Positions 12,816 to 33,645 of a DNA stretch of 64,000 bases are shown here, in pieces. Position 1 is the stretch's first letter. Every line of letters begins with the position of its first letter. This DNA is from Hyphomicrobiales bacterium (GTDB taxonomy: Bacteria > Pseudomonadota > Alphaproteobacteria > Rhizobiales > JAJFHB01). The DNA lies in the NCBI GenBank assembly GCA_021775755.1, contig JAJFHE010000033.1:248001-312000 (forward strand), in the 5' to 3' direction. Both the position numbers and the translations under genes were made by a program. The notes under the pieces were generated by a model that saw nothing but the letters and a program-made list of their open reading frames with translations, did not search any database and was not told the DNA's origin.

Positions 12816-12899
12816 GGGTAATCCTCCACTTTCTTGCTTTATGCCCGGTCCTCGCGACACGCGATTTGCCGGATTTATTCACCATTTCCGGTGTCTATG

Positions 12900-12916
12900 G
12901 CGGGCAGTCAGCCCGC
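12900..12916. repeat. Hairpin upstream of the binding-protein gene
   Basis: GCGGGC (12900-12905) and GCCCGC (12911-12916) form a 6-bp stem with a 5-base loop in the 181-base gap between the LivM gene and the binding-protein gene. Such intergenic stem-loops often allow higher expression of the receptor than of the permease. No T-run follows. Confidence 0.3.
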
Positions 12917-12996
12917 TATGGTGAAATCGTATCACCCCACTCCGAAATGGTAAAATCCCAAAAAGGTTTAACTCCTAAACGCGCCCGCCTTCCCCG

Positions 12997-14073
12997 CTAG
13001 TAGGGGAACGGCCAGCGCCGTAATTTTTCCTTCGCGATCGACCACAATCGTGCCAGCCCGTTCGGCTCAACGATAAGAAAGAAGATGATCAATCCGCCGA
13101 CAATCATGAACTGGACATGCTCAACTGTTGCCGCATTGATGTCGGCGCCGAAGTACTTCGGCATGGCGCGCAGTAAAATAGGCAGGTTCCAGATGAACGC
13201 CGCGCCAAGGAACGAACCGAGGATACTTCCAAGCCCGCCAATGATCACCATGAACAAGATGAGGAACGAATGGTTGATGTCGAAGCTTTCGACCTCCGCC
13301 GCGCCGAGCCACATGAAGACCATCAGCGCACCGGCGACGCCGGCATAGTAGGAGCTGATCGAAAATGCCAGCAGCTTGGTGGGCAACAGTCTGATGCCTA
13401 TCAGTTCCGCGGCGATGTCCATGTCGCGAACCGCCATCCATGCCCGTCCGAAACGGCCGCGCACCAAATTTGATGCAATCAGCGCCAGCGCAACAACGAT
13501 GGTCAGCACAATGATGTAGCGCGTGACAGAACTAGCCGGTGCGCCGGCGATTGCAACGCCGAACAGATACTGGTTTGGAACCTCGATGGCGCCGGAAGGG
13601 TTGTAGTTGTAGAGCCACGCGACACGCCCGAAGGCCCATTCAAGGAAGAACTGCGAGGCAAGCGTCGCAACGGCCAGGTAGAAGCCTTTGATACGCAGAC
13701 TCGGCAGCCCGAAGAGGAAGCCGACACCGGCGGCAAAAAATCCCGACAACAGGATATGGATGAGCACGTTCACTTCGGGGAAGATGGTTACGAGCTTGTA
13801 GCACGCATAGGCACCGACCCCCATGAAACCGCCAGTACCCAATGACAATTGGCCGGCGTAACCGGTCAGGATGTTAAGGCCGATCGCCGCCAACGCGAAG
13901 ATCATTGTCGGGATCATGATGGCGTTGAGCCAGTAGTCGTTGAACGTAAACGGCACGACAAGGAACAGCACCGCCAGAAGCGCGGCGATGCCGATAAAAT
14001 CCTGACGGATCGGGAACACCGCTTGATCGGCGCGGTAATTGGTCTTGAACTGACCTGCTTCGCGATACAACAT
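12997..14073 (-). CDS. livM: Liv-type ABC importer permease, LivM-like
   Basis: An inner-membrane permease of 358 residues with about ten hydrophobic segments. It has the LivM motif GYAGQLSLGTGGFMGVGAYA (about residue 70) and the EAA-type loop VRDMDIAAELIGIRLLPTKLLAF (about residue 215). ATG at 14073 is preceded by TAGGAG. It follows the LivH gene by 12 bases in the same operon. Confidence 0.92.
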   Translation of the reverse strand: MLYREAGQFKTNYRADQAVFPIRQDFIGIAALLAVLFLVVPFTFNDYWLNAIMIPTMIFALAAIGLNILTGYAGQLSLGTGGFMGVGAYACYKLVTIFPEVNVLIHILLSGFFAAGVGFLFGLPSLRIKGFYLAVATLASQFFLEWAFGRVAWLYNYNPSGAIEVPNQYLFGVAIAGAPASSVTRYIIVLTIVVALALIASNLVRGRFGRAWMAVRDMDIAAELIGIRLLPTKLLAFSISSYYAGVAGALMVFMWLGAAEVESFDINHSFLILFMVIIGGLGSILGSFLGAAFIWNLPILLRAMPKYFGADINAATVEHVQFMIVGGLIIFFLIVEPNGLARLWSIAKEKLRRWPFPY

Positions 14074-14085
14074 GACGCGGCGCTC

Positions 14086-15042
14086 CTAAACGCGATCGAT
14101 GATCTTCTCGCCGAACAGGCCTTGAGGCCTGAACCACAGGAAGATCAGTGCAAGGAAATAGGGGAACCAGCTTTCGATGCTGCCGCCAACCAGCGGACCC
14201 CAGTAAAATTCAGCCAGCTTCTCGCTGAAACCGATAATCAGGCCGCCGATAATGGCGCCCGGGATCGACGTGAACCCGCCGAGGATCAGCACCGGCAGCG
14301 CCTTCAGGGCGACGATCGAAAGCGCAAAACTCACATCCGAACGCGCACCCCACATGATGCCCGTCGCAAGCGCCACGATACCGGCCGCAAACCACACGAT
14401 GCGCCAGATCTGGTTTAACGAAATGCCGACCGATAGCGCAGCCTGGTGATCGTCGGCAACCGCCCGCAACGCGCGGCCGATACGGGTCTTGTTGAAGAAT
14501 ATCGCAAGGCCGCCGACCAGAATGCCGGCGATGATCGCAGCCGCCGCGTCGATACGCTGAATGCTGACAAACCCACCCAGCATCTCAAAATCCCAGGCAC
14601 CTTTCGGTAGTCCGAGTTCTTCGGTGATCATCGTCTTCGGCTCGCCGCCAAAGATCATTTCACCAAGACCGATGAGGAAGTAGTTGAGGCCGATCGTTGC
14701 CATAAAAAGGATGATCGGCTCCTGGTTGACGAGCGGTCTGAGCACGACGCGTTCGACCGAATAGGCCAGAACGCCCATGATGGCGATTGACAGAATGAGT
14801 GCCAGATAGGCCGGGACACCGAAGGCATATAGGCCGACCAGGGACAAGGCGCCGAACACCACCATGATGCCCTGCGCGAAGTTGAACACGCCCGAGGCCT
14901 TGAAGATCAGCACGAAACCCAGCGCAATCAGCGCGTAGAGCGTCCCCGATACGAAACCTTCCCACAAGACCTGTACAAGCAGGTCCGGAAACTCCCACAT
15001 CTGCACGAAGGGATCGACGAAAATACCGTAAAGCAATTCCAT
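14086..15042 (-). CDS. livH: Liv-type ABC importer permease, LivH-like
   Basis: The partner permease, 318 residues, with about eight membrane segments. ALGFVLIFKASGVFNFAQG (about residue 40) and the loop RIGRALRAVADDHQAALSVGI (about 187) are characteristic of LivH. It starts at an ATG with GGGGA seven bases upstream and sits 16 bases downstream of the LivG gene. Confidence 0.92.
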   Translation of the reverse strand: MELLYGIFVDPFVQMWEFPDLLVQVLWEGFVSGTLYALIALGFVLIFKASGVFNFAQGIMVVFGALSLVGLYAFGVPAYLALILSIAIMGVLAYSVERVVLRPLVNQEPIILFMATIGLNYFLIGLGEMIFGGEPKTMITEELGLPKGAWDFEMLGGFVSIQRIDAAAAIIAGILVGGLAIFFNKTRIGRALRAVADDHQAALSVGISLNQIWRIVWFAAGIVALATGIMWGARSDVSFALSIVALKALPVLILGGFTSIPGAIIGGLIIGFSEKLAEFYWGPLVGGSIESWFPYFLALIFLWFRPQGLFGEKIIDRV

Positions 15043-15058
15043 TACGCGTCCCCACCCA

Positions 15059-15862
15059 TCAGTGCGTTTCGCCGAGATAGGCGTCGATCACATTTTGATC
15101 TTTTCTCACCTCATCCGGCGTGCCATCGGCAATCTTCTGACCGTAGTCGAGCACAACCACGCGGTCCGACAGATCCATCACGACCCCCATGTCGTGTTCG
15201 ATCAGCGCAATTGTCGTGCCGAACTGAGCGCTCACATCGAGAACGAAGCGCGACATGTCTTCTTTTTCTTCAAGGTTCATCCCCGCCATCGGCTCATCGA
15301 GCAGCAGAAGATCCGGCTCCATCGCCAGCGCCCGGCCAAGTTCGACGCGCTTTTGCAGTCCGTACGGCAAACGCCCGACCGGTGTCTTGCGGATTGCTTC
15401 GATCTCGAGGAACCCGATGATGTGCTCGACGAATTCGCGGTGGTCTAGTTCTTCGTTCTCTGCCGGACCCCAGCGCCACAAATGCCAAAACAGGTTCGAG
15501 TTCATCTTGAGTGAGCGGCCGGTCATGATGTTGTCGAGTGTCGACATGCCGCGAAACAGCGCCACGTTCTGAAACGTCCGCGCGATACCCTGGGAAGCGG
15601 CGATATAGGGCCGCATGTCCTGCCGCGTTTCGCCCTTGTAGGTGATGGAACCTTCCTGGGGGTGGTAAAATCCGTTGATGACGTTAAGCATCGACGTCTT
15701 GCCGGCACCGTTCGGCCCGATGATGGCGCGGATTTCGCCCTTCATCACGTCGAAACTCACGTCGCGGATTGCCTTGACGCCGCCGAATGACAGCGACACG
15801 TTCTCTATATTGAGAATTTTCTCCTGGGCACCATTGGCCTCGACCGCCTCAGCCGCGCTCAT
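15059..15862 (-). CDS. livG: Liv-type ABC importer ATPase, LivG-like
   Basis: The second ATPase, 267 residues. Walker A is GPNGAGKTS (about residue 51), the LivG-specific signature is YGLQKRVELGRALAMEP (about 167) and Walker B is LLLLDEPMAGMN. Its ATG overlaps the TGA of the upstream acyl-CoA ligase (ATGA at 15859-15862), so the two are translationally coupled. Confidence 0.92.
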   Translation of the reverse strand: MSAAEAVEANGAQEKILNIENVSLSFGGVKAIRDVSFDVMKGEIRAIIGPNGAGKTSMLNVINGFYHPQEGSITYKGETRQDMRPYIAASQGIARTFQNVALFRGMSTLDNIMTGRSLKMNSNLFWHLWRWGPAENEELDHREFVEHIIGFLEIEAIRKTPVGRLPYGLQKRVELGRALAMEPDLLLLDEPMAGMNLEEKEDMSRFVLDVSAQFGTTIALIEHDMGVVMDLSDRVVVLDYGQKIADGTPDEVRKDQNVIDAYLGETH

Positions 15863-18130: not shown

Positions 18131-21100
18131 TCACGCAGCGGCACGGCGCTTGGACGAAGCAGCCTTAAACTGTTCAAAAAGCTCACGTTCCTTCTGCCGC
18201 GCCTCATCGAGATGCCGAGCCTTGACGTGACCATAACCCCTTATGTGCTCGGGAATGCTGGCGATCTCCACTGCGACCTCGAGGTTACTCTTGCTCAACG
18301 ATGTAAGCAGCCGCTTGACCGTCGCTTCATATTCGCCAATAAGCCCTCGCTCCATGCGCCGCTCCGCCGTGTAGCCGAACGGATCGAATGCCGTGCCGCG
18401 CAGGACCTTAAGCGGCGCAAGCAGCCGGAACGCACCGAGTATCCAGGCACCGAACTCCGTCTTCTTCGGTTCGCCACTGTCTAGATCGCGGCGCCCGAGC
18501 AGCGGCGGCGCAAGATGCAGTTTCAGTCTGTAATTCCCGCTGAACTGTTGGGCAACGGAGCGCACAAAACTGCCATCCGTATAGAGCCGTGCGACTTCGT
18601 ACTCGTCCTTGTAGGCGAGCAGCTTGAAATAGTAGCGCGCCACCGCTTCCGAGAGCCCCGTTTGCCCGGGCGCAACAGCCGTCTCGGCCTGTGCAACCTT
18701 ATCGACCAGCGAGCGGTAGCGCTCTCCATAGGCGGCGTTCTGGTAGCCGGTCAGAAACGCCACACGGCGCTCGACGAAAGAAGCAAAGTCATCGCCTTCC
18801 CCATCATCGGGGACGGCCACGTCTTCATCCGGGGCAACGATTGCTTCAACGCTCGCAAGGTCGGCGGCCGCCCGGCGCCCCCAGGTGAAAGCTTCACGGT
18901 TCATCGCAACCGCGACACCATTGAGCTCAATCGCCCGCTCGATCGCGTGCGCACTCACCGGCAGCAAGCCGCGCTGCGATGCAAAGCCGACGATGAACAG
19001 ATTGGATCCGATCGAATCTCCAAGCAGCGCCGTTGCCAGACGGTGTGCGTCGACCAGCTCGACATTCTTGCGCCGTGCCCGCGCTTCGATGGCGATCCGC
19101 AAACGCTCCGTTGGCAGGCTGAAATCCGCATCGCGCGTGAACTGCGCCGTCATCTGCTCGTGACTGTTGACAACCACGCGGGTATGGCCGGGCCGGAACG
19201 TGCTGAGGTTTTTCTCCGCGCCCGTGGTCACAAGATCGCAGCCGAGCACAAGGTCCGAGTCGCCCGCTGCCAGCCGGATCGTCTGGATGTCTTCCGGTTT
19301 CGCACCGATCTTCATGTGCGTCACCACCGAGCCGTTCTTCTGCGACAGTCCCGCCATGTCGATCATGCCGGCGCCCTTGCCTTCCAGATGCGCCGCCATG
19401 CCGATGATCTGGCCGAGCGTGACGACCCCGGTGCCGCCGATGCCGGTGATCAAAATGCCGTAGGGACGCTCAAGGGCCGGTTGTTCCGGCTCCGGCAAAT
19501 CCGCGAACTCAACTTGCGGAAGCGCCTTCTTCTGCGCCGCCTGGCCAAGCGCCAGTTCACCGCCATGCACCGTAACGAAGCTCGGACAGAACCCGTTTAC
19601 GCAGGAGTAATCCTTGTTGCATACGGATTGATCGATACGCCGCTTGCGGCCGAATTCGGTTTCCGACGGCACCACGGCGACGCAGTTCGATTTGACGCCG
19701 CAGTCTCCGCAACCCTCGCAAACGAGCTCATTGATGAAAACGCGCTTGGGCGGATCGGGAAACAGGCCGCGCTTGCGCCGCCGCCGCTTTTCCGCTGCAC
19801 AGGTCTGGTCGTAGATGAGGACCGTGACCCCGGCAATTTCCTGCAGCTCTTCCTGCACTTTCTCAAGCTCGTCACGATGATAGAACGTGGTGAACTGCGG
19901 GAAGCCGGCGCTGGGTGCATATTTGTCCGGCTCATCGCTCACCACGACAACGCGCTTTGCGCCTTCCGCCGCGACCTGCCGGGCAATCATCGGCACGGTC
20001 AGCGAGCCCTCATGCGGCTGGCCGCCGGTCATGGCCACGGCATCGTTGTAAAGGATCTTGTAGGTGACGTTCACATTCGCCGCCACGCAGGCTCTGAGCG
20101 CCATGATGCCTGAGTGATTGTAGGTGCCATCGCCGAGATTCTGGAATATGTGCTCACGCGTCGAGAACGGCGCCTCGCCGATCCAATTGGCGCCCTCGCC
20201 GCCCATATGAGTGGCGCCCTCGGTATTGCGTTCTGGAATGTACTGAACCATCCAGTGGCATCCGATGCCCGCATAGGCGCGCGCGCCGTCGGGGATCGTG
20301 GTCGAGCTGTTATGCGGACAACCGGCACAGAAATAGGGAATGCGCGAGGCCACATCGGGCGTATTGCGCACGTTGCCTTCCGCCGTTTCGAGCCGTTCAA
20401 GTTCCTGCGCGATGCGTTCATCGGGCTGGCGCGGCAAAATCCGGCTGGCCAGCGCGATGGCGATCTGATTGGGATCGAGAGCGCCCTTGGCCGGAAACAG
20501 GTTGTGACCGTCCTCATCCTTCTTGCCGATGATCGCCGGAGCCTTGGCGGTGCCATATAGTTGCTCGCGCACTTGCGTTTCGATCAGCGAGCGCTTTTCT
20601 TCCACGACAATGATCATGTCGAGACCGCGCGCGAACTTGGCGATTATTTCCGGATCGAGGGGCCACACCATGCCGATCTTCAAAAGCCGGATGCCGAGTT
20701 TCGAGGCGCGCACTTCGTCGATGCCAAGCTCGTCAAGCGCCTCGCGCACATCGAGGTAGCTCTTGCCCGTCGACACGATGCCGATTTTCGGCGCCCGCCC
20801 GCCCCCGAACACGATGCGGTCGAGGTTGTTGGCGCGGGCAAAGGCGACGGCGGCAAAGCGCTTTTGTTCGTGAATGCGCTCTTCCTGCTCGTGCCGGTCG
20901 TCCCAGGGCCGGATATTGAGGCCGCCCTCGGGCATGTCGAAATCGCCCGGAAGATTGATCTTGATGCGGTTCGGATCCGCATCCGCCACGGTTGTCGACT
21001 CAACCGTGTCCTTCATGCATTTGAGGCCGACCCAGCAGCCGCTATAGCGCGACAGCGCCCAACCGTAGATGCCGTAGTCGAGGAGTTCCTGAACGCCGGC

Positions 21101-21619
21101 CGGATTGAGGATCGGCATCATCACGTCGACAAGAATAAACTCGCTTTGATGCGGCACCGTGGAGGATTCCGCCGTGTGGTCGTCGCCCATGAGGACCAGT
21201 ACGCCGCCATTCTTTGAACTGCCGGCCATGTTGGCATGGCGGAAAATATCACCGCAACGGTCAACGCCCGGGCCCTTGCCGTACCAGATGCCGAACACGC
21301 CGTCATGTTTGCCTTCGCCGCGCATCTCGGCCTGCTGCGTCCCCCAAAGCGCGGTTGCCGCCATATCCTCGTTGAGGCCCGGCTGAAACTTCACATTGTA
21401 GGGCTCAAGCGCCGCCTTGGAGCGTGCGAACTGCTGATCAAGCCCGCCGAGTGGCGAACCGCGATAGCCCGACACATAGCCCGCCGTATTCAGGCCCTCG
21501 CCCTTGTCGCGTGTGCGCTGCATCATGGTCAGGCGGACGATCGCCTGGGTCCCCGAAAGCAGTACTTTTTTCTTGGTCAGGTCGTATCGGTCCGAAAGGC
21601 TCACATCAGCGAGCGTCAT
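18131..21619 (-). CDS. Fused indolepyruvate ferredoxin oxidoreductase (IorA-IorB type)
   Basis: It decarboxylates aryl or branched 2-oxo acids to acyl-CoA using thiamine diphosphate and Fe-S clusters. The 1162-residue chain is the single-polypeptide form common in proteobacteria. An N-terminal pyrimidine-type domain (GYVSGYRGSPLGGLDQQF near residue 45) is followed by the TPP site GDGTYNHSGIMAL (about 500). A cysteine-rich Fe-S segment comes next (CEGCGDCGVKSNC about 640, then CNKDYSCVNGFCPSF), then a gamma-type domain opening GILITGIGGTGVVTLGQIIG. ATG at 21619 has GGGAAGA upstream. It may feed acyl-CoA into the neighbouring acyl-CoA dehydrogenase genes. Confidence 0.9.
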   Translation of the reverse strand: MTLADVSLSDRYDLTKKKVLLSGTQAIVRLTMMQRTRDKGEGLNTAGYVSGYRGSPLGGLDQQFARSKAALEPYNVKFQPGLNEDMAATALWGTQQAEMRGEGKHDGVFGIWYGKGPGVDRCGDIFRHANMAGSSKNGGVLVLMGDDHTAESSTVPHQSEFILVDVMMPILNPAGVQELLDYGIYGWALSRYSGCWVGLKCMKDTVESTTVADADPNRIKINLPGDFDMPEGGLNIRPWDDRHEQEERIHEQKRFAAVAFARANNLDRIVFGGGRAPKIGIVSTGKSYLDVREALDELGIDEVRASKLGIRLLKIGMVWPLDPEIIAKFARGLDMIIVVEEKRSLIETQVREQLYGTAKAPAIIGKKDEDGHNLFPAKGALDPNQIAIALASRILPRQPDERIAQELERLETAEGNVRNTPDVASRIPYFCAGCPHNSSTTIPDGARAYAGIGCHWMVQYIPERNTEGATHMGGEGANWIGEAPFSTREHIFQNLGDGTYNHSGIMALRACVAANVNVTYKILYNDAVAMTGGQPHEGSLTVPMIARQVAAEGAKRVVVVSDEPDKYAPSAGFPQFTTFYHRDELEKVQEELQEIAGVTVLIYDQTCAAEKRRRRKRGLFPDPPKRVFINELVCEGCGDCGVKSNCVAVVPSETEFGRKRRIDQSVCNKDYSCVNGFCPSFVTVHGGELALGQAAQKKALPQVEFADLPEPEQPALERPYGILITGIGGTGVVTLGQIIGMAAHLEGKGAGMIDMAGLSQKNGSVVTHMKIGAKPEDIQTIRLAAGDSDLVLGCDLVTTGAEKNLSTFRPGHTRVVVNSHEQMTAQFTRDADFSLPTERLRIAIEARARRKNVELVDAHRLATALLGDSIGSNLFIVGFASQRGLLPVSAHAIERAIELNGVAVAMNREAFTWGRRAAADLASVEAIVAPDEDVAVPDDGEGDDFASFVERRVAFLTGYQNAAYGERYRSLVDKVAQAETAVAPGQTGLSEAVARYYFKLLAYKDEYEVARLYTDGSFVRSVAQQFSGNYRLKLHLAPPLLGRRDLDSGEPKKTEFGAWILGAFRLLAPLKVLRGTAFDPFGYTAERRMERGLIGEYEATVKRLLTSLSKSNLEVAVEIASIPEHIRGYGHVKARHLDEARQKERELFEQFKAASSKRRAAA

Positions 21620-21818
21620 GGCATGTCTTCCCGAAACTGCCACCCGGCCAGGCCGCCGGGGGTCTTGCCCTAATAGGTAAGCAATATTGACATATAATAA
21701 CGTCCTAAGTCAACTCAACTCCCCGCGGGCACAGCCGTTATGCGGCATCGAAGGTATGCCACCGGCGCGCCCGGCGCCAGTCCATCACGTGGAATAACCG
21801 TTCACATTTGCCGGCGCG

Positions 21819-23024
21819 CTAAACGCCCCAGCGCCAGAAATCGAGGCCCTCTTTCCGGTAGGCCCGCGACAGCACCATTTTGTGGACTTCCGACGCCCCG
21901 TCCACCAGCCTGGCGCAACGGGCATATCGATAAATCCACTCAAGTACGGTGTCCTGAGAATAGCCCTTTGCTCCGCACAGCTGGATCGCCGTATCGCAGG
22001 CCTTGTGGATCGTATCGGCAACGTGAATCTTCGCCATCGACACCTCTTTGCGCGCATAGTCGCCCTGGTCGATCTTCCATGCCGCATTCATGGTGAGAAG
22101 ACGGCCGATGTGGATGTCCTTGGAAACGTCCCCCAGCATCATCTGCACCGACTCCCTGTCGGCCAGTTTGATGCCGAAGGATTCACGTTCCGATATGTAG
22201 TCATTGGCGATCTCAAGGCAGCGCTTGGCAAGACCAAGCCAGCGCATGCAATGTGTCAGCCGCGCCGGCCCGAGCCGCATTTGAGTGATGCGCAAACCGT
22301 CGCCCTCTTCCAGAAGCCGGTGTTCGTCGGGGATCTCCAGTCCGTCGAATTCAACCTCGCAGACGCCGCCGTGCTCGTCGGGGCCCATATTCGCGATGCG
22401 CCGCGTGATGCGCCAGCCGGGATCGTCCTTGTGGTACAAAAATGTACTCAGACCCCGGCGCGGATCATCCGAAGTGCGCGCCATCAAGATAAAATGGCTC
22501 GCCACTTCAGCGCCGGAGATGAACCACTTGTTGCCATGAACAACCCAGCCATCGCCCTTGCGTTCCGCCTTGGTCAGCATCATGCCACCGGGGTCGGAAC
22601 CCGATCCCGGGTGAGGTTCGGTCATCACAAACGATGAACGCACATCGCCGTCGATGATTGGTTGCAGCCACTTGTCCTTCATGGACTCGCTTGGCAGGAT
22701 CTTGTTGAGCACGCTCATATTGCCATCGTCCGGCGCCTGGCAGTTGATGCACACAGGCCCGAATATGGAGCGGTTGGCTTCTTCATAAAGCGCCGCCCAG
22801 CCGATGACCCGCAATCCCATGCCGCCACGCTCCTTCGGCATCTGCGGCGCCCACAGACCCGCCGCGCGCGCTTTCGCACGCATCGTTGCCAATACACTCA
22901 GCTTGATGTTGTCGTATTCGTTGTAATTGGCGCGGTCCGCTTCAAGCGGCACAACTTCCTCGGCAATGAATTCGCGCACCCTGAGGCGCAGGGCGTCGAT
23001 TTCAGGCGGCAGATTGAAATCCAT
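21819..23024 (-). CDS. Acyl-CoA dehydrogenase
   Basis: An FAD enzyme that makes 2-enoyl-CoA and passes electrons to ETF, whose genes are at 55.9-57.6 kb. It has 401 residues. FVMTEPHPGSGSDPGGM (about residue 135) is the FAD/substrate loop, and the C-terminal YARCARLVDGASEVHKMVLS motif is typical of the ACAD10/11-like group. ATG at 23024 has AAGGAA upstream. It lies 26 bases behind the SDR gene at the end of the TRAP operon, implying that the imported acid is oxidised as a CoA ester. Confidence 0.9.
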   Translation of the reverse strand: MDFNLPPEIDALRLRVREFIAEEVVPLEADRANYNEYDNIKLSVLATMRAKARAAGLWAPQMPKERGGMGLRVIGWAALYEEANRSIFGPVCINCQAPDDGNMSVLNKILPSESMKDKWLQPIIDGDVRSSFVMTEPHPGSGSDPGGMMLTKAERKGDGWVVHGNKWFISGAEVASHFILMARTSDDPRRGLSTFLYHKDDPGWRITRRIANMGPDEHGGVCEVEFDGLEIPDEHRLLEEGDGLRITQMRLGPARLTHCMRWLGLAKRCLEIANDYISERESFGIKLADRESVQMMLGDVSKDIHIGRLLTMNAAWKIDQGDYARKEVSMAKIHVADTIHKACDTAIQLCGAKGYSQDTVLEWIYRYARCARLVDGASEVHKMVLSRAYRKEGLDFWRWGV

Positions 23025-23050: not shown

Positions 23051-23833
23051 TCAGACTCCAAGGCCATGACCGCCATCAACCGTAATCACCGAGCCGGTCA
23101 TGAAACTTGAAGCCTCTGAGGCGAGCAACAGCACGATACCGTCCAGTTCGGATGGGTCGGCAACACGGCGTTGCGGAATCATGCGGATGAAGGGTTCGGC
23201 CTGGGGCGATTCAAAAAATGCCTCGTTCATCTCCGTCAATATGTAACCCGGCGCGATCGCATTGACGCGGATGCGATGCCGCGCCAGTTCAAGCGCCATT
23301 GCCTTGGTCAGTTGAATAACGGCTGCCTTGGACGCCGAATAGGCGCTGAGCGCGCGGGTTACGCGCAACCCCAGCAGCGATGCAATGTTGACAATACTGC
23401 CGCCGGTCTCGGCCTCTGTCATGCGGCGCGCGGCCTCCTGCGCAACGTGCCAAACTGCATCGAGATTGACATCCATGGTTTTGCGCCAGTCGTCTGCGGT
23501 CATATCCAGCACGGATTTCTGCACTGCAAGTCCTGCATTGTTGATCACAATGGTAACGGTGCCGAACGCGTTCTCGGCAGTGTTGAACGCATCCTCGATT
23601 TGCGAGGTTTGTGCGACATCCAGCGCCACTGGCAAGGCGGTCCCGCCGTCGGCCTCGATCTCTTTCACAAGCTCTTCCAAGCGCTCAAGACGCCGTGCCG
23701 CAACCACGACGCGCGCGCCATGCGCGGCGAGGACACGGGCGAACCTGCGGCCAAGACCGCTCGAAGCGCCGGTCACCAGCGCCGTCCGCCCGGCGATGTC
23801 GAAAAGATCGGAAGGTGATTTTATCTCACTCAC
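23051..23833 (-). CDS. SDR family NAD(P)-dependent oxidoreductase
   Basis: A classical short-chain dehydrogenase of 260 residues. The cofactor motif TGASSGLGRRFA begins near residue 20, followed by NNAG (about 98) and the catalytic YSASK (about 165). The start is GTG at 23833 with AAGGG upstream. Similar enzymes act as 3-hydroxyacyl-CoA or alcohol dehydrogenases; the substrate cannot be read here. It is flanked by the TRAP large permease and the acyl-CoA dehydrogenase in one transcription direction. Confidence 0.88.
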   Translation of the reverse strand: MSEIKSPSDLFDIAGRTALVTGASSGLGRRFARVLAAHGARVVVAARRLERLEELVKEIEADGGTALPVALDVAQTSQIEDAFNTAENAFGTVTIVINNAGLAVQKSVLDMTADDWRKTMDVNLDAVWHVAQEAARRMTEAETGGSIVNIASLLGLRVTRALSAYSASKAAVIQLTKAMALELARHRIRVNAIAPGYILTEMNEAFFESPQAEPFIRMIPQRRVADPSELDGIVLLLASEASSFMTGSVITVDGGHGLGV

Positions 23834-23866: not shown

Positions 23867-25471
23867 TCACAAACCATAAAGCGCCTCCGGCAACCAGGTC
23901 GCAAGGTGCGGGATGAACCAAACGATGGCAAGTGCCACCAGCTGCAGCGCGACGAACGGCGCCACCCCTTTATAGATATCGGTGGTGCGCACATCCGGCG
24001 GCGCCACACCGCGCAGGTAGAACAGGGCAAACCCGAACGGCGGCGTCAGAAACGACGTCTGCAGATTGAGCGCAAACAGTACCCCGAGCCAGACCGGCGT
24101 AATCGTAAAACCGGCTTCGGGTGGCATTTGCAACAGCACCGGCGCCACGACCGGCACGACGATGAACATGATCTCGAGAAAATCTAGAAAGAATCCCATA
24201 ACGAACATCACGGCCATTACCGTGAGAAGCGCGCCCGCCGGCCCCCCCGGCAAATCGCTCAGGAAACGCTCGATCATGTGATCGCCGCCAAAGCCGCGCA
24301 GCACCAACGCAAACAGCGAAGCGCCGATCACGATGGCGAAGATCATCGCCGAAAGCACCAGCGTGGCGCGGATGATCTCCGGCAACAACCTCCCGCCGCC
24401 CTCGCTGCCGGGTGCGGAAAAGAGCGCCCGCAGCGCCACGGCAAGCCCGGCAACACCGAGGCCTGTCAGGATGAACGCCACCGCCGAGCGCACGACAACG
24501 AATGCGCCGCCCCCGGCCCGGGCTTCGCGCAGATCGAAGGCGATGGCGAGCACGAAAAGAACGAGCCAGGCCAGCAGGCCAATTGTGATCGCCGCCCGGC
24601 CGCGCGCTGCAACCTTATGCCCTGCGAGCATCAGCGCGCCGACCGCGCCAACGCTTGATGCTTCAACGGCAGGTGCAATGCCCGAGAGAATCGAACCCAG
24701 TACCGCAACAATCAAAAACACCGGTGCGAACAGCACGCGGCATAATTGACCGAAGGACGCGCGCTCAGCCGCCTCGCGCATTGGCGGCGCGCGGTCGGGG
24801 CGCAGTCTTGCGTAGAAAATCTGGAACCCGATGTAGAGCGCAACCAGCATCAGACCGGGAACGAGCGCGCCCGCAAACAGCTCTTTCACAGTGATGGTTT
24901 CCGGCGCCGAAATACCGAGATCGAACTGCGCGGTCTGATAGGCGATGGAGAGTTGATCGGCGAGCAGCACAAGAATAATGGACGGCGGAATGATCTGCCC
25001 CAGAGTTCCGCAGGCCGCAATCGACCCACAGGAAAAGGCAGCGCCATAGCCGCGCTTCAACATCACCGGCAGCGCCAGGAGCCCCATGGTGACAACCGTT
25101 GCCCCGACGATGCCGGTCGATGCGGCCATGAGCATGCCGACAATGCTGACCGCATAGGCCATGCCGCCTGGAAAGCGCCCAAACAGCCCGCCCATCGCTT
25201 CTAGCAAATCGCGCGCGGTGCGCGAGCGCTCCAGCGCAACGCCCATAAGAATGAACAGCGGCACGGCGATCCAGATCTCAGCCGACATGGTTGCGAAGAC
25301 GCGCTGCGGGAACGCCCCGAGAAGGGTGAGGTCGAACACACCCATCGCATTGCCCGCAAGCGCAAATCCAAGCGCCGTGCCCGCAAGCACGAAAGCCACG
25401 GGGATCCCGGTCATCAACAGGGCGACAACGCCCGTCAGCATTAACAGACAAATGAACTCCGCCAGTTGCAT
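23867..25471 (-). CDS. dctM: TRAP transporter large permease (second set)
   Basis: The membrane subunit that drives Na+-coupled uptake. It has 534 residues and about 14 hydrophobic segments. GATVVTMGLLALPVMLKRGY, GTLGQIIPPSIILVLLADQL and LQTSFLTPPFGFALFYLRGV are DctM hallmarks of the FcbT3-like branch. It is longer than the usual 430 residues because of an inserted region at roughly 290-390 with extra membrane segments. It starts four bases after the small-permease stop. Confidence 0.9.
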   Translation of the reverse strand: MQLAEFICLLMLTGVVALLMTGIPVAFVLAGTALGFALAGNAMGVFDLTLLGAFPQRVFATMSAEIWIAVPLFILMGVALERSRTARDLLEAMGGLFGRFPGGMAYAVSIVGMLMAASTGIVGATVVTMGLLALPVMLKRGYGAAFSCGSIAACGTLGQIIPPSIILVLLADQLSIAYQTAQFDLGISAPETITVKELFAGALVPGLMLVALYIGFQIFYARLRPDRAPPMREAAERASFGQLCRVLFAPVFLIVAVLGSILSGIAPAVEASSVGAVGALMLAGHKVAARGRAAITIGLLAWLVLFVLAIAFDLREARAGGGAFVVVRSAVAFILTGLGVAGLAVALRALFSAPGSEGGGRLLPEIIRATLVLSAMIFAIVIGASLFALVLRGFGGDHMIERFLSDLPGGPAGALLTVMAVMFVMGFFLDFLEIMFIVVPVVAPVLLQMPPEAGFTITPVWLGVLFALNLQTSFLTPPFGFALFYLRGVAPPDVRTTDIYKGVAPFVALQLVALAIVWFIPHLATWLPEALYGL

Positions 25472-25474
25472 GGC

Positions 25475-25984
25475 CTAACGCGGACCCGAGAACCGCCGCG
25501 CGGCGGAAGTCGCCATCGAAACAGCTTGCAAAAACAGCGCCAGCGCGGCAATCCAGATTGCCGTCTTGTAGAGAAATACGAGCGGCACGCCCGCCCCTTC
25601 GCTGGTGCCTTCGAGCACCGCCCACGATCCCAGGACATAGCCCCGCGAACCGGCGAACAGCAGCACGCTCAAAGGCGCGATGAAAACGACCGCCGCACAG
25701 ATGTCGATTGCCGCCCGCGCCCGTTCACCGGCCGAACGGTAGAAGATGTCGACCCGGACATGCCGGTCGAGCAGCAGCGCATACGCCAGTCCCATGATGC
25801 AGAAGACACCGTTGATGTAGCGAAGATTGATCTGTTGCCAGACAAACCCGGTATCGAACACGTGCCTCAACACCATGACGCCGAACTGACCGAGGGCAAC
25901 GATGAGGACGAGCCAGGCGACACCGTGCGCAACCCCGCGGTTCACACGGTCGATAGTGTCGGACGCTTTGCGCAGGGAATTCAT
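25475..25984 (-). CDS. dctQ: TRAP transporter small permease (second set)
   Basis: The small membrane subunit, about 169 residues with four hydrophobic segments. RHVFDTGFVWQQINLRYINGVFCIMG and LLLDRHVRVDIFYRSA are typical DctQ features. ATG at 25984 is used; ATG at 25996 is also possible because neither has a clear ribosome site. It pairs with the following large permease. There is no binding-protein gene next to it, so it must share the upstream receptor or use a distant one. Confidence 0.85.
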   Translation of the reverse strand: MNSLRKASDTIDRVNRGVAHGVAWLVLIVALGQFGVMVLRHVFDTGFVWQQINLRYINGVFCIMGLAYALLLDRHVRVDIFYRSAGERARAAIDICAAVVFIAPLSVLLFAGSRGYVLGSWAVLEGTSEGAGVPLVFLYKTAIWIAALALFLQAVSMATSAARRFSGPR

Positions 25985-26046
25985 GGCAACGCCCATGTGG
26001 CACAGCGTGCACACATATTACAAGCCGGGCGCCGGGCGGTTAAGCC

Positions 26047-28710
26047 TCAGAAGCTGAGCGACAGGTCGCGGTGATGCGACAGGCATGCCGCAACATCGGT
26101 CGCCCGATCGATGTCCAGACGCTCCTGCAGCCTGACGCCAATGGTGTCGCTGATCGACGCTTCATATGTGGCAAGGCCGGTGCCTATGCCGCTCGATGCC
26201 TGTTGCCGCCACACGACTTCGGCATCGTAGAGCTCAAGCGCTTCGGCAAGGAACCCGGCGGACGCCTCGCGGTCCGGCTCGTCGCCCTTCATCTTGCGCC
26301 GTGCCTTGGAAAGCTTCGCATTGATGGCGCTCGTACCTTCAACCGTGCGCAACAGATCCTGAACCGCCTTGATGGTTTCCATCGCCGGCTCCGACGCCTC
26401 GGCGGCTATCACCGATGAAAGGCCCGCGATATCATCTCTCATACCGCCCAGGGCCTCGGCGCCGTCAAGCAGATTGCCGAGCACCTCGACGGGTTCATAC
26501 GCGTCGTCGACATTCCGGCGGTAATCGCGCCGTGCCTTCTCCAACGCCTTTTCAAGTTCCAGATAGGCCGCACGCTCGCTCTCCCAGTTGGCGGGGACTT
26601 GCGCCTCGATCTGTTCGACATGCGCTTTGAGGGAGGCGATCTGCGCGTCCATATCGGCCAGTTGCTCTTCGGTCGATGCATCGTCGCCGGAAAGGCGCCG
26701 TCTGCGGCGTTCCAGCTTTTCGATGTCCGACGAGCTGCGGATGGCATCGCGTTGGATATTGCGCACATTGCCATGCAGTTCGCGGTAACCGGGCACGAAC
26801 TCTGCAAGCCTGGCCTCCGCCTCCCGCACCCCCGCGACGCGGTCGAATGTGGCGCGCGCGCGTTCGATGCCGGTTTCCAGATTGCCGCGGTGCTCATCGG
26901 GCAACGAGGAAAGATCGAGGGTCGCAAACCGATCGATACTGGTACGCAGTTCGTCGGCCCGCTCATCATAGGCGACGAATAGCTGATCTTCGAGGCAGAG
27001 CTGGAGCCGCGGGTTTTGCGGTGGTGGCGCAGTATCGGACGTTAGATAGACGCGATTCGGCAGGTAGTTCACGAGGCTTGGATACATGCCGACCACAGCA
27101 AGCCCCATGAGCTGAAGAATGATGAAGGGCACAACGCCCTTGTACATGGCGATCGTCGTCACATTTGGTGGTGCCACGCCTCGAAGATAGAACAGCGCAA
27201 AACCGAACGGTGGCGTCAGGAACGACGTCTGGATGTTCACACCGATCATCACGCCCAGCCAAACGGCGGTGACATTTGCGGAAGGATCGGCAAGCAGGAT
27301 TGGCGCAATGATCGGCACGACCACAACCGCGATTTCAATGAAATCCAGGAAGAAGCCGAGAAGAAAGATCACCGCCATGACAACGATGAACTTGCCCATG
27401 AACCCGCCCGGCAGACCGGTCAGGAAGTCGCGAACCAGTTCTTCGCCGCCGAACGCGCGAAATGCCGCGGTCAGCATCGCCGCGCCGAGCAGGATGATGA
27501 ACACTAAAGAACTCGTCTTGGCGGTCTCGACCATCACCCACATCAAGGTGTTTTCGGCCCTGTAGGCACGCCACGCACTCCAGAACACCGAAATCAGCAA
27601 AACCGTCACCGCAATGGCCGCCAGCGTGACGGCAAAGCTGTCTTCAGCGGTTGCAATATTCTTCACATTGATCGTGTAGGTGTTCAAAAGCAGAATGATC
27701 GCGACCACCGAACCGACCGCCAGAATGGCCGGCCAATACTGCCGGGGCTTACCCTCCTTAAGCCGGTAGCCCGCCATGATCATCGCGCCCACCGCACCGA
27801 TGGCACCGGCCTGGTTCACGGTTGCGATACCAGCGATGATTGACCCCAGAACCGCAACGATGAGGGTTAGAGGCGGCACCAGCACGACGAAAACGCGCAA
27901 CGCGAATTTCGTATCGTACTTGCCTTTGTAGGGCACTGGCGGCGCAAGCTTCGGCCGCAAAAGCGCAAGCACCAGGATATAGGCCATATAGATCCCGACC
28001 AGTACCATGCCGGGCAGGAAAGCGCCGAGGAACATATCGCCCGCACTCGTCGACGTCAGGCCGAGTTCAACCGGCAGCGACGTGTTGCCGGTAAGAGCCT
28101 TGAATTCCGCCGCGCGAATGGTGAGCGCCTGATCGGTTGCGCTCGAAAGCTGGTCGGCCAGAATGATCAGAACGATCGACGGCGGAATGATCTGGCCCAG
28201 TGTTCCGGACGCCGCGATCGTGCCGGTTGCGAGCGACTGCGAATAGTTGTTGCGCAGCATCACCGGGAGCGAGATCAGCCCCATCGCTATGACGGTCGCG
28301 CCCACAATGCCGGTCGTTGCCGCAAGCAGCGCGCCGACAAATACGACGGAAATACCGAGGCCGCCGGGAACCGGACCGAAAAGCTGTGCCATCGTCATCA
28401 GCAGATCTTCGGCGATCTTGGAGCGCTCCAGCATGATGCCCATGAAGACAAACAGCGGGATCGCAATCAAAGTATCTCGCTCAGGCTCCCAGTAAACGCC
28501 TCGGAAATTCGTCACCCCGGCATTGAGCCACTGAATGGGATCGCCTTGCGCAAAAAAGGCGCCCATTTCGCCGCCGAAGATGAGGCCGGCGATGGCGGCC
28601 AGCAGAATGGTCACGATCGCCGCACCCGGCAACGCGAAAGCCACCGGATAGCCCGACCCCAGGGCAGCCACCATGGTCACGATAAGGATTGCAAGAAACA
28701 GGAGTTCCAT
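26047..28710 (-). CDS. TRAP large permease with about 320-residue C-terminal coiled-coil extension
   Basis: Residues 1 to about 565 are a DctM/FcbT3-type permease: GATVIAMGLISLPVMLRNNY, GTLGQIIPPSIVLIILADQL and IQTSFLTPPFGFALFYLRGV. They carry the same mid-protein insertion as the second large permease. From about residue 566 (NPRLQLCLEDQLFVAYDERA) to 887 the chain is charged and helical, with long Arg/Glu/Asp-rich heptad-like stretches around residues 640-750. It lacks further membrane segments. One open frame covers all of it, so this is a fusion and not two genes. The role of the extension is unknown; a cytoplasmic regulatory or scaffold domain is possible. Standard DctM is about 430 residues. 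Confidence 0.88.
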   Translation of the reverse strand: MELLFLAILIVTMVAALGSGYPVAFALPGAAIVTILLAAIAGLIFGGEMGAFFAQGDPIQWLNAGVTNFRGVYWEPERDTLIAIPLFVFMGIMLERSKIAEDLLMTMAQLFGPVPGGLGISVVFVGALLAATTGIVGATVIAMGLISLPVMLRNNYSQSLATGTIAASGTLGQIIPPSIVLIILADQLSSATDQALTIRAAEFKALTGNTSLPVELGLTSTSAGDMFLGAFLPGMVLVGIYMAYILVLALLRPKLAPPVPYKGKYDTKFALRVFVVLVPPLTLIVAVLGSIIAGIATVNQAGAIGAVGAMIMAGYRLKEGKPRQYWPAILAVGSVVAIILLLNTYTINVKNIATAEDSFAVTLAAIAVTVLLISVFWSAWRAYRAENTLMWVMVETAKTSSLVFIILLGAAMLTAAFRAFGGEELVRDFLTGLPGGFMGKFIVVMAVIFLLGFFLDFIEIAVVVVPIIAPILLADPSANVTAVWLGVMIGVNIQTSFLTPPFGFALFYLRGVAPPNVTTIAMYKGVVPFIILQLMGLAVVGMYPSLVNYLPNRVYLTSDTAPPPQNPRLQLCLEDQLFVAYDERADELRTSIDRFATLDLSSLPDEHRGNLETGIERARATFDRVAGVREAEARLAEFVPGYRELHGNVRNIQRDAIRSSSDIEKLERRRRRLSGDDASTEEQLADMDAQIASLKAHVEQIEAQVPANWESERAAYLELEKALEKARRDYRRNVDDAYEPVEVLGNLLDGAEALGGMRDDIAGLSSVIAAEASEPAMETIKAVQDLLRTVEGTSAINAKLSKARRKMKGDEPDREASAGFLAEALELYDAEVVWRQQASSGIGTGLATYEASISDTIGVRLQERLDIDRATDVAACLSHHRDLSLSF

Positions 28711-28714
28711 GGGC

Positions 28715-29824
28715 CTACACTTCCGCCGTTTCAGGCGCGGTTGATGCCTCGTCTCCCGACCCCTCGTCCAGATCCGGCTCGCCTAGCAGGTCGGCGGCGC
28801 TGCTCAGGCAATAGCTCACGAATTGGATCAGCATGGTCAGGGCGTAGATCACCAGGAATCCCGCCATAAAGTATTTTACGAATAGTCCGAAACCGCTCTG
28901 CGTCACTTCGAAATTGAGGAGCGGCCCATTGATGACGTTGGTCTTGCCCCACATACCGCGCGTCAGGATTATCCAGCACAGCGGGATACCGAGGATCAGC
29001 GAACCGAAGAAGTTGGTAAGCGCTTTCCCGCGCCGGGTGAAGCTGGTGTAGAGGATGTCGACCCGAACATGACCTTCGGTTATCAGCGTATAAGCACTGG
29101 CAAACAGGAACAGCGCGCCATACCAGAACCGCACCAGATCAGCCATGAACGCCTGTTCATAAGAGAATACGAACCGTGCGATTACGATCTGCAGCTCGGC
29201 AATAACAATAAAAAACGCAAGCCAGACAAAGCCCAGTGTGCGTGTGAAAGCGGCGACAATGAACGACACGAGAATAAGCGGATAGTGGACATAGGTGCCG
29301 CGGAATGTCGAGCGGCCCAGGTCCTGCGCAAGATCCTCACCGACTATACCGGCCAACAGTTCCTCAACCCGGAGGAACGAAATCGCCATGTCGGCGAGTC
29401 CGATGAACAGCACACTCCAGAACGCACCGCGCGCAATATAGGCGGAAAACGCCGTCAGACGCTCCGCATCCTCGCGCAGGCCGCGATCGGGTGACCGCTG
29501 AACCAGCAAGACACTCAGCCCAATGACGACGAAGTAGAGAAGGAACTGAATCCACCCCTTCGTAACGTCACCAACCTCAAGCGGCGTACGCAGCGGCCCG
29601 AGCCCAAGCAGCTCATGGTGTGCAAAGAGCTGCGGAATGCCCGGCCAGTCCTGCCAGAAATTCAGATAATTGTTGAAAATGAAGAACAGGGCGGCTCCCA
29701 CCGTGGAAAGCCCGAGGGCACGCAGCACGAATACCTTGCCCGGCCCATTCGTCGCTTGTTCCCCCTGCGCAGGCGCCGCACCCTCATGCGCACCCGTCGC
29801 GATCTCTTCATACGACGGTGTCAT
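28715..29824 (-). CDS. TRAP small permease, long form
   Basis: 369 residues from ATG 29824 (a GTG at 29830 is nearer the AGGAA site and also possible). That is about twice a normal DctQ. The C-terminal half has the DctQ pattern RFWYGALFLFASAYTLITEG then HVRVDILYTSFTRRGKALTN. The N-terminal half adds membrane segments near 36-55, 90-108, 130-150 and 178-215. This long form belongs to the FcbT2-like group that accompanies mannitol/chloroaromatic-type TRAP receptors. It ends four bases before the 887-residue large permease. Confidence 0.85.
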   Translation of the reverse strand: MTPSYEEIATGAHEGAAPAQGEQATNGPGKVFVLRALGLSTVGAALFFIFNNYLNFWQDWPGIPQLFAHHELLGLGPLRTPLEVGDVTKGWIQFLLYFVVIGLSVLLVQRSPDRGLREDAERLTAFSAYIARGAFWSVLFIGLADMAISFLRVEELLAGIVGEDLAQDLGRSTFRGTYVHYPLILVSFIVAAFTRTLGFVWLAFFIVIAELQIVIARFVFSYEQAFMADLVRFWYGALFLFASAYTLITEGHVRVDILYTSFTRRGKALTNFFGSLILGIPLCWIILTRGMWGKTNVINGPLLNFEVTQSGFGLFVKYFMAGFLVIYALTMLIQFVSYCLSSAADLLGEPDLDEGSGDEASTAPETAEV

Positions 29825-29833
29825 TGTCACCAC

Positions 29834-29848
29834 TGGTTCCTGGAACCA
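29834..29848. promoter_or_regulatory. 15-base palindrome over the small-permease ribosome site
   Basis: TGGTTCC-T-GGAACCA is a perfect 7-bp-arm inverted repeat. On the minus-strand transcript it contains the AGGAA ribosome site of the long small permease, so folding could reduce its translation relative to the binding protein. Function is inferred. Confidence 0.3.
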
Positions 29849-29884
29849 CCGGCCCCTCGCCCGTGTTTCCTGTGTTCAGAAGTC

Positions 29885-29913
29885 GGGAAGCGGAGCAACT
29901 TGCTCCGCTTCCC
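29885..29913 (-). terminator. Strong hairpin between binding-protein and permease genes
   Basis: GGGAAGCGGAGCA (29885-29897) pairs perfectly with TGCTCCGCTTCCC (29901-29913), a 13-bp stem with a 3-base loop. It lies just after the dctP stop and has no T-run. Such hairpins typically attenuate read-through and stabilise the receptor mRNA. Confidence 0.6.
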
Positions 29914-29935
29914 CTGTTCGAGTGTCGTGGTGACG

Positions 29936-31027
29936 TCAGACGCCGAGCACGCGGTTGCGCTGGGCGATGTACGACTGAATCGTAAGCTTCGACCAGGCAC
30001 CAAGATCGGTACGCGCGGCACGGAAGCTGTCGTCGATACGATGGGCCAGTTCACTGTGATCGCGCACGGTTTCGAAGACTTCTTCGGAAGCTTCGAAGAA
30101 CGCATCATAAACGTCGTCGTTGAACTCGCGCAGCTGGACGCCCTGGTTTTCGACCAGATCCTTGAGCGCAGCACCCGACTTGGCGTTGTATTCCGCCATC
30201 ATCAGATCGTTCTCCTGCGACGCGGCGGCGTTGATCAGTGCCTGGTCGGTCTTCGACAGACCGCCCCACCAGGACGCGTTCATGCCGAATGCGAGCATCG
30301 AGCCCGGCTCGTGCATGCCCGGATAGTAGTAGTACTTGGCAGCTTCATAGAACTTCATGAAGCTGTCGTTCCACGGGCCGACCCACTCGGTCGCGTCGAT
30401 CGCGCCGGACACGAGGTTTTCGTAAATCTGGCCGCCCGGCAGCGATACCGGCGATGCGCCAAGCTTGGCCATGACGTCGCCGCCGAGGCCCGGAATACGC
30501 ATCTTCAGACCCTTGAGGTCGTCGGGTGAGTTGATTTCCTTGTTGAACCAGCCGCCCATCTGCACGCCGGTGTTGCCGGCAGCGAGGCACTTGAGGCCGA
30601 ATTCACCGGCCAGCTCATCCCACAATTCCTGTCCGCCACCGAAGTGGATCCAGGCGTTGATTTCGTCATAGGTGAGGCCGAACGGCACGGCTGTGAAGTA
30701 GCCCCAGCCAAGGTGCTTGCCCTTCCAGTAGTAGTCGGCAGCGTGATAGGCCTGCGCGTTGCCCGACGCCACTTCGTCGAACGAGTCGAATGCACCGACG
30801 CGCTCGCCGGCGGCGAAATACTCGACCTGAATGCGGCCGTCGCTCATGTCCGAAAGGTTCTGGGCAAGACGCTGCGCACCGGTTCCAAGACCCGGGAAGT
30901 CGCGCGGCCAGGTCGAAACCATGACCATTTCAACGCGTTCTTGCGCGATTGCCGGAGCGGCCAGCGTGGTCGCAGCCGCTGCACCGGTCGCAAGACCCGC
31001 ATTTTTGATGAATTTACGACGATCCAT
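29936..31027 (-). CDS. dctP: TRAP transporter substrate-binding protein, TakP/FcbT1-like
   Basis: The periplasmic receptor, 363 residues. The N-terminus MDRRKFIKNAG is a twin-arginine (Tat) signal with AIAQE cleavage near residue 29, so it is exported folded. GNTGVQMGGWF (Gln156), LKGLKMRIPG (Arg177) and IDATEWVGPWND (Trp215) match the 2-oxo-acid-binding TakP group, in which the conserved Arg holds the carboxylate. ATG at 31027 has GAGGGAGA upstream. It heads an operon of dctP, long dctQ, extended dctM, dctQ, dctM, SDR and acyl-CoA dehydrogenase. The ligand is probably a monocarboxylic or 2-oxo acid. Confidence 0.92.
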   Translation of the reverse strand: MDRRKFIKNAGLATGAAAATTLAAPAIAQERVEMVMVSTWPRDFPGLGTGAQRLAQNLSDMSDGRIQVEYFAAGERVGAFDSFDEVASGNAQAYHAADYYWKGKHLGWGYFTAVPFGLTYDEINAWIHFGGGQELWDELAGEFGLKCLAAGNTGVQMGGWFNKEINSPDDLKGLKMRIPGLGGDVMAKLGASPVSLPGGQIYENLVSGAIDATEWVGPWNDSFMKFYEAAKYYYYPGMHEPGSMLAFGMNASWWGGLSKTDQALINAAASQENDLMMAEYNAKSGAALKDLVENQGVQLREFNDDVYDAFFEASEEVFETVRDHSELAHRIDDSFRAARTDLGAWSKLTIQSYIAQRNRVLGV

Positions 31028-31367
31028 ATTTTGTGTCTCCCTCAAGGTTTCTTATTTTCGCACAGCGCGTTGCACGTGCAGCGAAATCGTTGATCGCCCG
31101 GCATATGGAACAGCGTCGTTAGTGCATGCTCACAAAGCCGGCATTCAACATGGCTGTCATTTAAAGACCATGAAGCATCAAATGACAAGCACAACCATTA
31201 AGCAGGTAGCCGCCGTTGGAACAGTGCGTTTCCCACGTTACGGATTGTTGCACATGAATTTTTCCGGTCCGGCGGCGAAGCAGTAAGCGCCGGTTTCCAT
31301 GCAGATCGAGATGGATTTGTGATCCGGTATGCAGTATCTCTTCGCGCAGTGACGCAGCTAGGGACAG
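31028..31367. promoter_or_regulatory. Divergent promoter region dctP / amidotransferase-like gene
   Basis: No gene is visible in these 340 bases. TGCACGTGCA at 31071-31080 is a perfect palindrome 44 bases before the dctP start and repeats the core seen before glpD. TGTCATTT (31155-31162) and AAATGACA (31180-31187) form an 8-bp inverted repeat with 17 bases between them. Both could be operators for the TRAP operon or the divergent gene. Confidence 0.4.
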
Positions 31368-33003: not shown

Positions 33004-33645
33004 ATGGCACATGACCATTCCCACGATCATGACGAAGGCTCAGCCCTTTCCGATACGGCGCTGCGCGTGCGCGCGCTGGAATCGCTGCTTGTCGAGAAAG
33101 GCTATGTCGAACCGGAAGCCCTCGACGCCCTGATCGACATCTACGAGCACAAGGTCGGGCCGCGCAACGGCGCCGCGGTCGTCGCCAAGGCATGGAGCGA
33201 TCCGGATTATTATGCCCGGCTGATGGATGACGCCACGGCGGCAATCGCCGAACTGGATTTCACCGGCCGGCAGGGCGAACACATGGTTGTCGTCGAGAAT
33301 ACGCCGGATACTCACAACATGGTCGTGTGCACGTTGTGCTCTTGTTATCCCTGGCCAGTGCTCGGGCTGCCGCCGGTCTGGTACAAGTCACCGCCCTACC
33401 GCTCCCGCGCCGTTTCCGACCCGCGCGGCGTGCTTGCCGATTTCGGCGTGTCCCTCCCCGATGGAACCGCTGTCCGCGTCTGGGACTCAACAGCCGAAGT
33501 CCGCTACCTCGTGCTGCCAATGCGCCCCGACGGCACCGAGGGGTGGAGCGAGGAAGACCTTGCCGCCCTCGTCACCCGTGACGCCATGATCGGCACCGGA
33601 CTGTCGTTGACACCCGATCAGGCCGCCGCGGCGGCAGCGGAATGA
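33004..33645 (+). CDS. Nitrile hydratase alpha subunit, cobalt type
   Basis: It hydrates nitriles to amides. 213 residues with the metal site [10 protein letters not shown], cysteines 109, 112 and 114. In this family the two later cysteines are oxidised to sulfinic and sulfenic acid. Thr110 and the following Tyr indicate the cobalt type (the iron type has Ser and Thr). The N-terminus is His-rich ([10 protein letters not shown]), which may help metal handling. ATG at 33004 follows GCGAGAG. Its last codon overlaps the start of beta-1 (ATGA), so the four genes alpha, beta-1, beta-2 and activator are tightly coupled. Confidence 0.95.

Follow-up and report, generated by a model that had tools for sequence, protein, structure and literature searches.

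The window (the whole stretch of DNA analysed, 64,000 nucleotides from a Hyphomicrobiales bacterium) contains a run of tightly packed genes, all on the minus strand. These are P, Q1, M1 with its tail, Q2 and M2, followed by an SDR gene, an acyl-CoA dehydrogenase gene and a gene of the indolepyruvate-ferredoxin-oxidoreductase family. Their positions in the window are listed below.

29936..31027 (or 31045), minus strand: P, TAT-exported substrate-binding protein, TakP-like (DctP, PF03480, E 6.3e-55; TAT signal)
28715..29833, minus strand: Q1, enlarged TRAP small permease, 372 aa (DctQ, PF04290, E 1.3e-9, at residues 217-339, in the C-terminal half)
27046..28710, minus strand: TRAP large permease domain of M1, DctM/FcbT3-like, residues 1-555 (PF06808; aligns to the solved SiaM/SiaQM and DctMQ chains)
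26047..27045, minus strand: C-terminal helical tail of M1, residues 556-887, predicted periplasmic arm (AlphaFold2; 55 homologues; no family or fold match)
25475..26014, minus strand: Q2, ordinary short TRAP small permease, 179 aa (DctQ, E 5.4e-12; of the type found in tail-less operons)
23867..25471, minus strand: M2, ordinary tail-less TRAP large permease, 534 aa, paralogue of M1 (DctM, E 2e-63)
23051-23833, minus strand: SDR gene
21819-23024, minus strand: acyl-CoA dehydrogenase gene
18131-21643, minus strand: indolepyruvate-ferredoxin-oxidoreductase-family gene

Translation of the ORF at 26047-28710 (minus strand) gives a single protein of 887 residues. It comprises a TRAP large permease (residues 1-555), identified in the N-terminal part by a Pfam match to DctM (PF06808, E = 3.2e-60), and a soluble, all-helical tail (residues ~556-887). 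In this permease family a single insertion adds two hydrophobic segments (residues 329-347 and 358-376). The original prediction, which was made from the sequence, described a permease fused to a soluble, coiled-coil-like tail. This is borne out: the two parts share one frame and the residues from ~556 onwards include no membrane segments. The tail had been taken to start at residue 566, which is correct to within ten residues but slightly too late.

Q1 is also enlarged. Its residues 1-199 (29237-29833) lie outside the DctQ model and, from hydropathy, include approximately four extra transmembrane (TM) helices. A long Q (317-383 aa) is present in every tailed locus with readable neighbours; two Q ORF calls beyond this range (522 and 423 aa) look like over-extended starts. 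In ten tail-less operons with 49-58% identical substrate-binding proteins (SBPs), Q is short (176-222 aa) and the permease is nearer to M2. Tail and long Q1 are found together in all loci that allow both to be judged, and the short form accompanies every tail-less M.

M2 is 42% identical to M1 and is placed with the tail-less permeases in the tree. The operon P-Q1-M1tail-Q2-M2 (23867-31045 of the window) has two Q-M pairs and one binding-protein gene. It had been suggested that the tail might tether the partner permease pair. This is unlikely, and was rejected, because a Q2-M2 pair lies beside the tailed system in just 4 of ~21 loci and most tailed loci have none. In the tree, the M2 of the window and of G001 is separate from that of Stappia/G043, and the two-pair arrangement may therefore have arisen twice.

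Two further groups of genes in the window were noted. A nitrile hydratase alpha chain is encoded at 33004-33645 (PF02979, E 1.6e-91), and L043, L046 and L038 have a similar gene close to their tailed transporter. At 11496-15862, a branched-chain-amino-acid-type ABC importer set adjoins AMP-binding ligase genes; this arrangement is conserved beside the tailed locus in L052.

Anatomy and distribution of the tail

The principal features of the tail, in the direction of translation, are as follows.

26995..27069, minus strand: conserved linker NYLPNRVYLTSDTAPPPQNPRLQLC, leading from permease to tail, residues 548-572 (invariant positions in 20 homologues)
26995..26997, minus strand: codon of Cys572, tail cysteine 1 (kept in 55/55 tails)
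26686..26898, minus strand: long helix of the rod, residues 605-675, 71 residues, ~106 A if straight (AlphaFold2 secondary structure)
26083..26085, minus strand: codon of Cys876, tail cysteine 2 (kept in 55/55 tails)
26050..26073, minus strand: C-terminal motif H-R-D-[ILV]-S-L-x-F, residues 880-887 (consensus HRDISLxF)

When modelled alone with AlphaFold2 (residues 556-887, nine sequences), the tail is predicted to be all-helical (mean pLDDT 87.2, pTM 0.73). Helices are predicted at residues 567-596, 605-675, 681-703 and 709-749, with several shorter ones up to ~806 and a 40-residue helix at 814-853; a last helix (867-886) is less certain. Residues 544-887 include 44 K/R and 64 D/E. The label 'coiled coil' is appropriate for the variable middle, a rod at residues 605-703 (helices 605-675 and 681-703), but not for the remaining tail, which is a bundle of shorter helices.

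Conservation is unevenly distributed. In the linker (consensus TAPPPxNPRLQxC), positions N548, L550, P551, T560-P564, N566, P567, L569 and C572 are invariant in the 20 homologues. Conserved positions in the tail middle are H646, R650, P706 and W709, together with RRNVDDAYEP, and those in the second bundle are G792, R804, W834 and R835. The C-terminal cap is also conserved (TIGLRxQ...AxCxSxHRDISLxF) and the terminal residue is F in 55/55 tails. The lowest conservation in the homologue alignment, and varying length, are found at the rod tip (residues ~651-700). The HRD[ILV]SLxF motif alternates hydrophobic residues and recalls the C-terminal peptides read by PDZ proteases or by the beta-barrel machinery.

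The original prediction could not say whether a named family covers the tail. A family search with the tail gave no Pfam or NCBIfam match above the cut-off. Searches of Pfam, NCBIfam and PDB sequences returned chance-level coiled-coil matches alone (SMC, TolA_bind_tri, myosin fusions), a PDB fold search with the tail model returned nothing at E<=0.001, and the plasmid records searched gave no match. No description of the tail was found in the open-licence papers searched for a C-terminal domain of DctM.

The search for tails covered 61 related genomes, GTDB contigs and two wider surveys, of 385 genomes for the class and 399 for the phylum. Tails were found in 31 of the 385 genomes of the class survey and in 7 of the 399 of the phylum survey, with each match of the latter falling within the same class. 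Carriers include Kiloniellaceae, Rhodospirillales, Hyphomicrobiales and Stappia albiluteola. We extracted 55 distinct complete tails, all from Alphaproteobacteria and all fused to a permease; none is a free-standing protein. Since each of the 55 is in frame with its permease and has fixed motifs at both ends, the fusion is confirmed as a real feature, beyond chance or an accident of frame. Full-length tailed homologues have 876-893 residues; compared with M1, they are 69-81% identical in the permease part and 31-52% in the tail.

A maximum-likelihood tree built from the permease part unites the 20 full-length tailed permeases in a single clade (support 100/100); its outgroup branches are very long and leave the position of the root unsure. 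A recent or single-genome fusion was rejected because the tailed permeases form one clade, within which no loss of the tail was seen. The original prediction had allowed that such tails might be common among FcbT3-like permeases and have a known function. The tail is indeed fixed in one clade, but it is absent from other FcbT3-like permeases, and no known function for it was found.

Side of the membrane

The M-subunit in the cryo-EM structure of PpSiaQM is N-out/C-out (PMC9971032). The FnSiaQM paper also places the C-terminus in the periplasm, there as a deduction from function (PMC11801797). The permease family profile aligns through residue 422 of the 427-residue PpSiaM chain, ~5 residues from its end, and the tail therefore begins where the solved chain ends. 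The two extra hydrophobic segments (329-347 and 358-376) preserve the topological parity of M1. With the C-out topology, the K/R-rich loops 251-273, 316-328 and 377-401 are located on the cytoplasmic side (positive-inside). Two other loops, both predicted to be periplasmic, are of interest here.

28471..28575, minus strand: loop between the second and third hydrophobic segments, residues 46-80, predicted periplasmic (alignment; positive-inside and N-out topology, PMC9971032)
28045..28161, minus strand: loop residues 184-222, predicted periplasmic (alignment; positive-inside and N-out topology)

An alignment of tailed and tail-less permeases shows a 16-residue insertion in the former loop and a 14-residue insertion in the latter, both exclusive to tailed permeases.

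The distribution of cysteines is equally regular. Every one of the 55 tails has exactly two, at fixed places in the first and last segments, with zero others in 17,702 residues, although this is a count over related sequences and not a simple probability. The equivalent of Cys876 is always 11 residues ahead of the last residue (55/55 tails). C572 and C876 are the sole cysteines among all 887 residues of M1, and the source genome encodes DsbB. This pattern is that expected of an exported, disulfide-clasped domain, and C572 and C876 are likely to form a disulfide. The predicted bond is based on conservation and not on model coordinates; AlphaFold2 gives low confidence over the C-terminal cap (pLDDT ~51-67).

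The tail is very probably periplasmic rather than cytoplasmic, because the solved homologues are C-out, the tail has the two-cysteine pattern, and the insertions specific to tailed permeases occur in loops predicted to be outside. Its orientation with respect to the membrane is taken from homology and not from the predicted model. In the full-length AlphaFold2 model the permease has a pLDDT mostly below 50, which we attribute to a shallow, overly similar alignment.

Possible role of the tail

The best PDB match of P is TakP (2hzk, E 4.8e-80), and it also matches the ketoacid-binding protein 7ug8. TakP binds pyruvate and a cation via Tyr100, Arg177 and the Trp215 region (PMC1839085). The TakP residues Y99, Y100, R177, E214, W215 and E240, which include pyruvate and cation ligands, are invariant in 28 SBPs (19 tailed and 9 tail-less). 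There is a good probability, judged from these sequences, that the substrate is an alpha-keto acid (2-oxo acid), for example pyruvate. An indolepyruvate-ferredoxin-oxidoreductase-family gene lies beside seven tailed loci (the window, at 18131-21643, L040, L042, L046, L049, L052 and L038). This fits a 2-oxo acid and is a hint of the aromatic or branched kinds.

TakP is a helix-swapped dimer and its authors proposed that the dimer remains bound to its membrane partner (PMC1839085). P aligns with TakP to TakP residue 352, that is, into the swapped-helix region (326-365). Eleven SBP positions separate tailed from tail-less systems; they were set aside as a tail-linked signal because ancestry explains them equally well. 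Extra TakP-like SBP genes (69-74% identical) are present at L104:3596-4687 and L105:5091-6194, in two genomes that both have a tailed transporter. Neither has a matching Q or M gene beside it within the stretch fetched.

On the reading we propose, the elevator domain carries the tail as a disulfide-clasped helical arm in the periplasm, where it docks or steadies a TakP-like, probably dimeric, binding protein. We give this proposal as a whole an even chance of being correct and infer with moderate confidence, again at about one chance in two, that the tail docks the binding protein. The last permease helix would end outside, and the TAPPPxNPRLQxC linker would raise the chain off the membrane. 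The chain would then go out and back as a long helical hairpin, which would bring the C-terminal cap (..AxCxSxHRDISLxF) to the base again, and there C876 probably bonds with C572. TM10-12 of the solved TRAP M-subunit are part of the transport (elevator) domain (PMC9971032). Since the last helices of PpSiaQM belong to this domain, the arm should ride on the moving elevator part of M1. Joined by the enlarged Q1 and by the two loop insertions, which are on its face of the membrane, it could form a platform where the binding protein docks and is captured or steadied through the elevator stroke. The result might be a higher efficiency or selectivity of substrate hand-over. Conservation is high at the base and ends and is low, with variable length, at the rod tip, which would fit a working surface at the base or the ends. 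Tail-less cousins with a related binding protein exist, and the tail is therefore dispensable for keto-acid TRAP transport as such.

A periplasmic arm could also be purely structural. It might hold Q1 and M1 together, oligomerise transporters or anchor them to the cell wall or outer membrane, all without contacting the binding protein. The strict pairing with an enlarged Q1, the ~106 A length of the rod, the invariant C-terminal Phe (55/55 tails) and a weak TolA_bind_tri-like coiled-coil similarity (E 0.0019, below the cut-off) would suit such a role. However, an anchor would use the rod tip, which is the least conserved and length-variable part, and no peptidoglycan-binding or outer-membrane-anchor domain was found with Pfam or NCBIfam. 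We consider this reading rather unlikely. A regulatory role in the periplasm, in which the tail senses redox state or a signal and the cysteine pair switches the arm and so gates transport, is quite improbable. The presence of exactly two invariant tail cysteines and no others, in a genome encoding DsbB, is compatible with a switch, but each lies within a rigid conserved motif at one end of the domain, as in structural clasps. In addition, no sensor domain was found and no redox-sensing gene stood out among the compared neighbours.

The original prediction assumed the other side of the membrane, where the tail could sense a cytoplasmic signal or recruit the downstream enzymes. The tail is soluble and charged, and in the window, as in some relatives, it is followed downstream by genes for an indolepyruvate-ferredoxin-oxidoreductase-like protein, an SDR and an acyl-CoA dehydrogenase. 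Neither suggestion is supported, since both need a cytoplasmic tail whereas the C-out M-subunits of the solved homologues and the two-cysteine pattern point to the periplasm. The SDR and acyl-CoA dehydrogenase genes, moreover, are missing near most tailed permeases; the dehydrogenases were rejected as recruited partners because they adjoin the tailed transporter in a minority of loci. A cytoplasmic tail is thus very unlikely. That the tail is a passive remnant or a misassembled fusion without function is scarcely credible. It does change faster than the permease (31-52% compared with 69-81% identity), but there are 55 distinct tails with invariant ends, and no loss was seen within a clade supported at 100/100.

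The strict coupling of a secondary transporter to its binding protein is still poorly understood (PMC9971032). An elevator-fixed periplasmic arm present across a whole clade would provide a natural handle on this coupling. For a region outside all family models, we offer the annotation of a predicted two-cysteine periplasmic arm with an enlarged Q. More speculatively, one class of DctP-type TRAP transporters may have independently gained a periplasmic helical arm on the moving elevator domain that grips a dimeric binding protein, which stays bound throughout the transport cycle. In 2007 a pathway with a membrane-bound dimer was proposed for TakP; the arm and the enlarged Q would then be the hardware missing from it. 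We regard this extension as tentative and rather unlikely.

Comparison with known systems

The FcbT2/FcbT3-like permeases (~530-560 aa) share the permease architecture, including the two-TM insertion, and M2 is an ordinary relative of this type. They differ from M1 and Q1 in having no tail, a short Q and neither the 16- nor the 14-residue periplasmic loop insertion. The TakPQM/SmoM-type alpha-keto acid TRAP transporter of Rhodobacter sphaeroides (PMC1839085; 2hzk, 2hzl) is alike in its binding protein, in the ligand residues examined and in its P-Q-M operon. By comparison with TakPQM, the tailed M and the enlarged Q are features of the present locus, the length of the R. sphaeroides TakM being outside the comparison; within the same order there are also tail-less operons whose SBPs are 49-58% identical. 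In the maltose ABC importer, the permease contacts its binding protein through the periplasmic domain MalF P2 (a comparison made in PMC11574862). The transporter and the fold are unrelated, and this is an analogy only.

The nearest parallel in design is VcGluQM, the TAXI-TRAP glutamate transporter of Vibrio cholerae, which has a C-terminal periplasmic DUF3394 claw with a predicted contact to the binding protein (PMC11574862). Both the claw and the present tail are C-terminal extensions of the transport domain that place a soluble domain in the periplasm (here as a prediction). The claw-bearing permease, in a TAXI system, has three extra TM helices, and the claw, which is mainly beta, occupies the loop that joins the last two of them. 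The present tail, in a DctP-type system, is all-helical, follows the last TM helix, has 330 residues and contains two conserved cysteines; no TM helix follows it (hydropathy). DUF3394 gave no match at E<=10 in the whole 887-residue protein and is not among the 25 best matches listed for the tail. The tail would be an analogue, and not a member, of the DUF3394 claw in the DctP-type branch. The authors of the VcGluQM study state that such a claw is unreported for DctP-type systems (PMC11574862). A periplasmic arm on M1, if correct, would contradict the view that C-terminal periplasmic extensions are specific to TAXI systems (PMC11574862).
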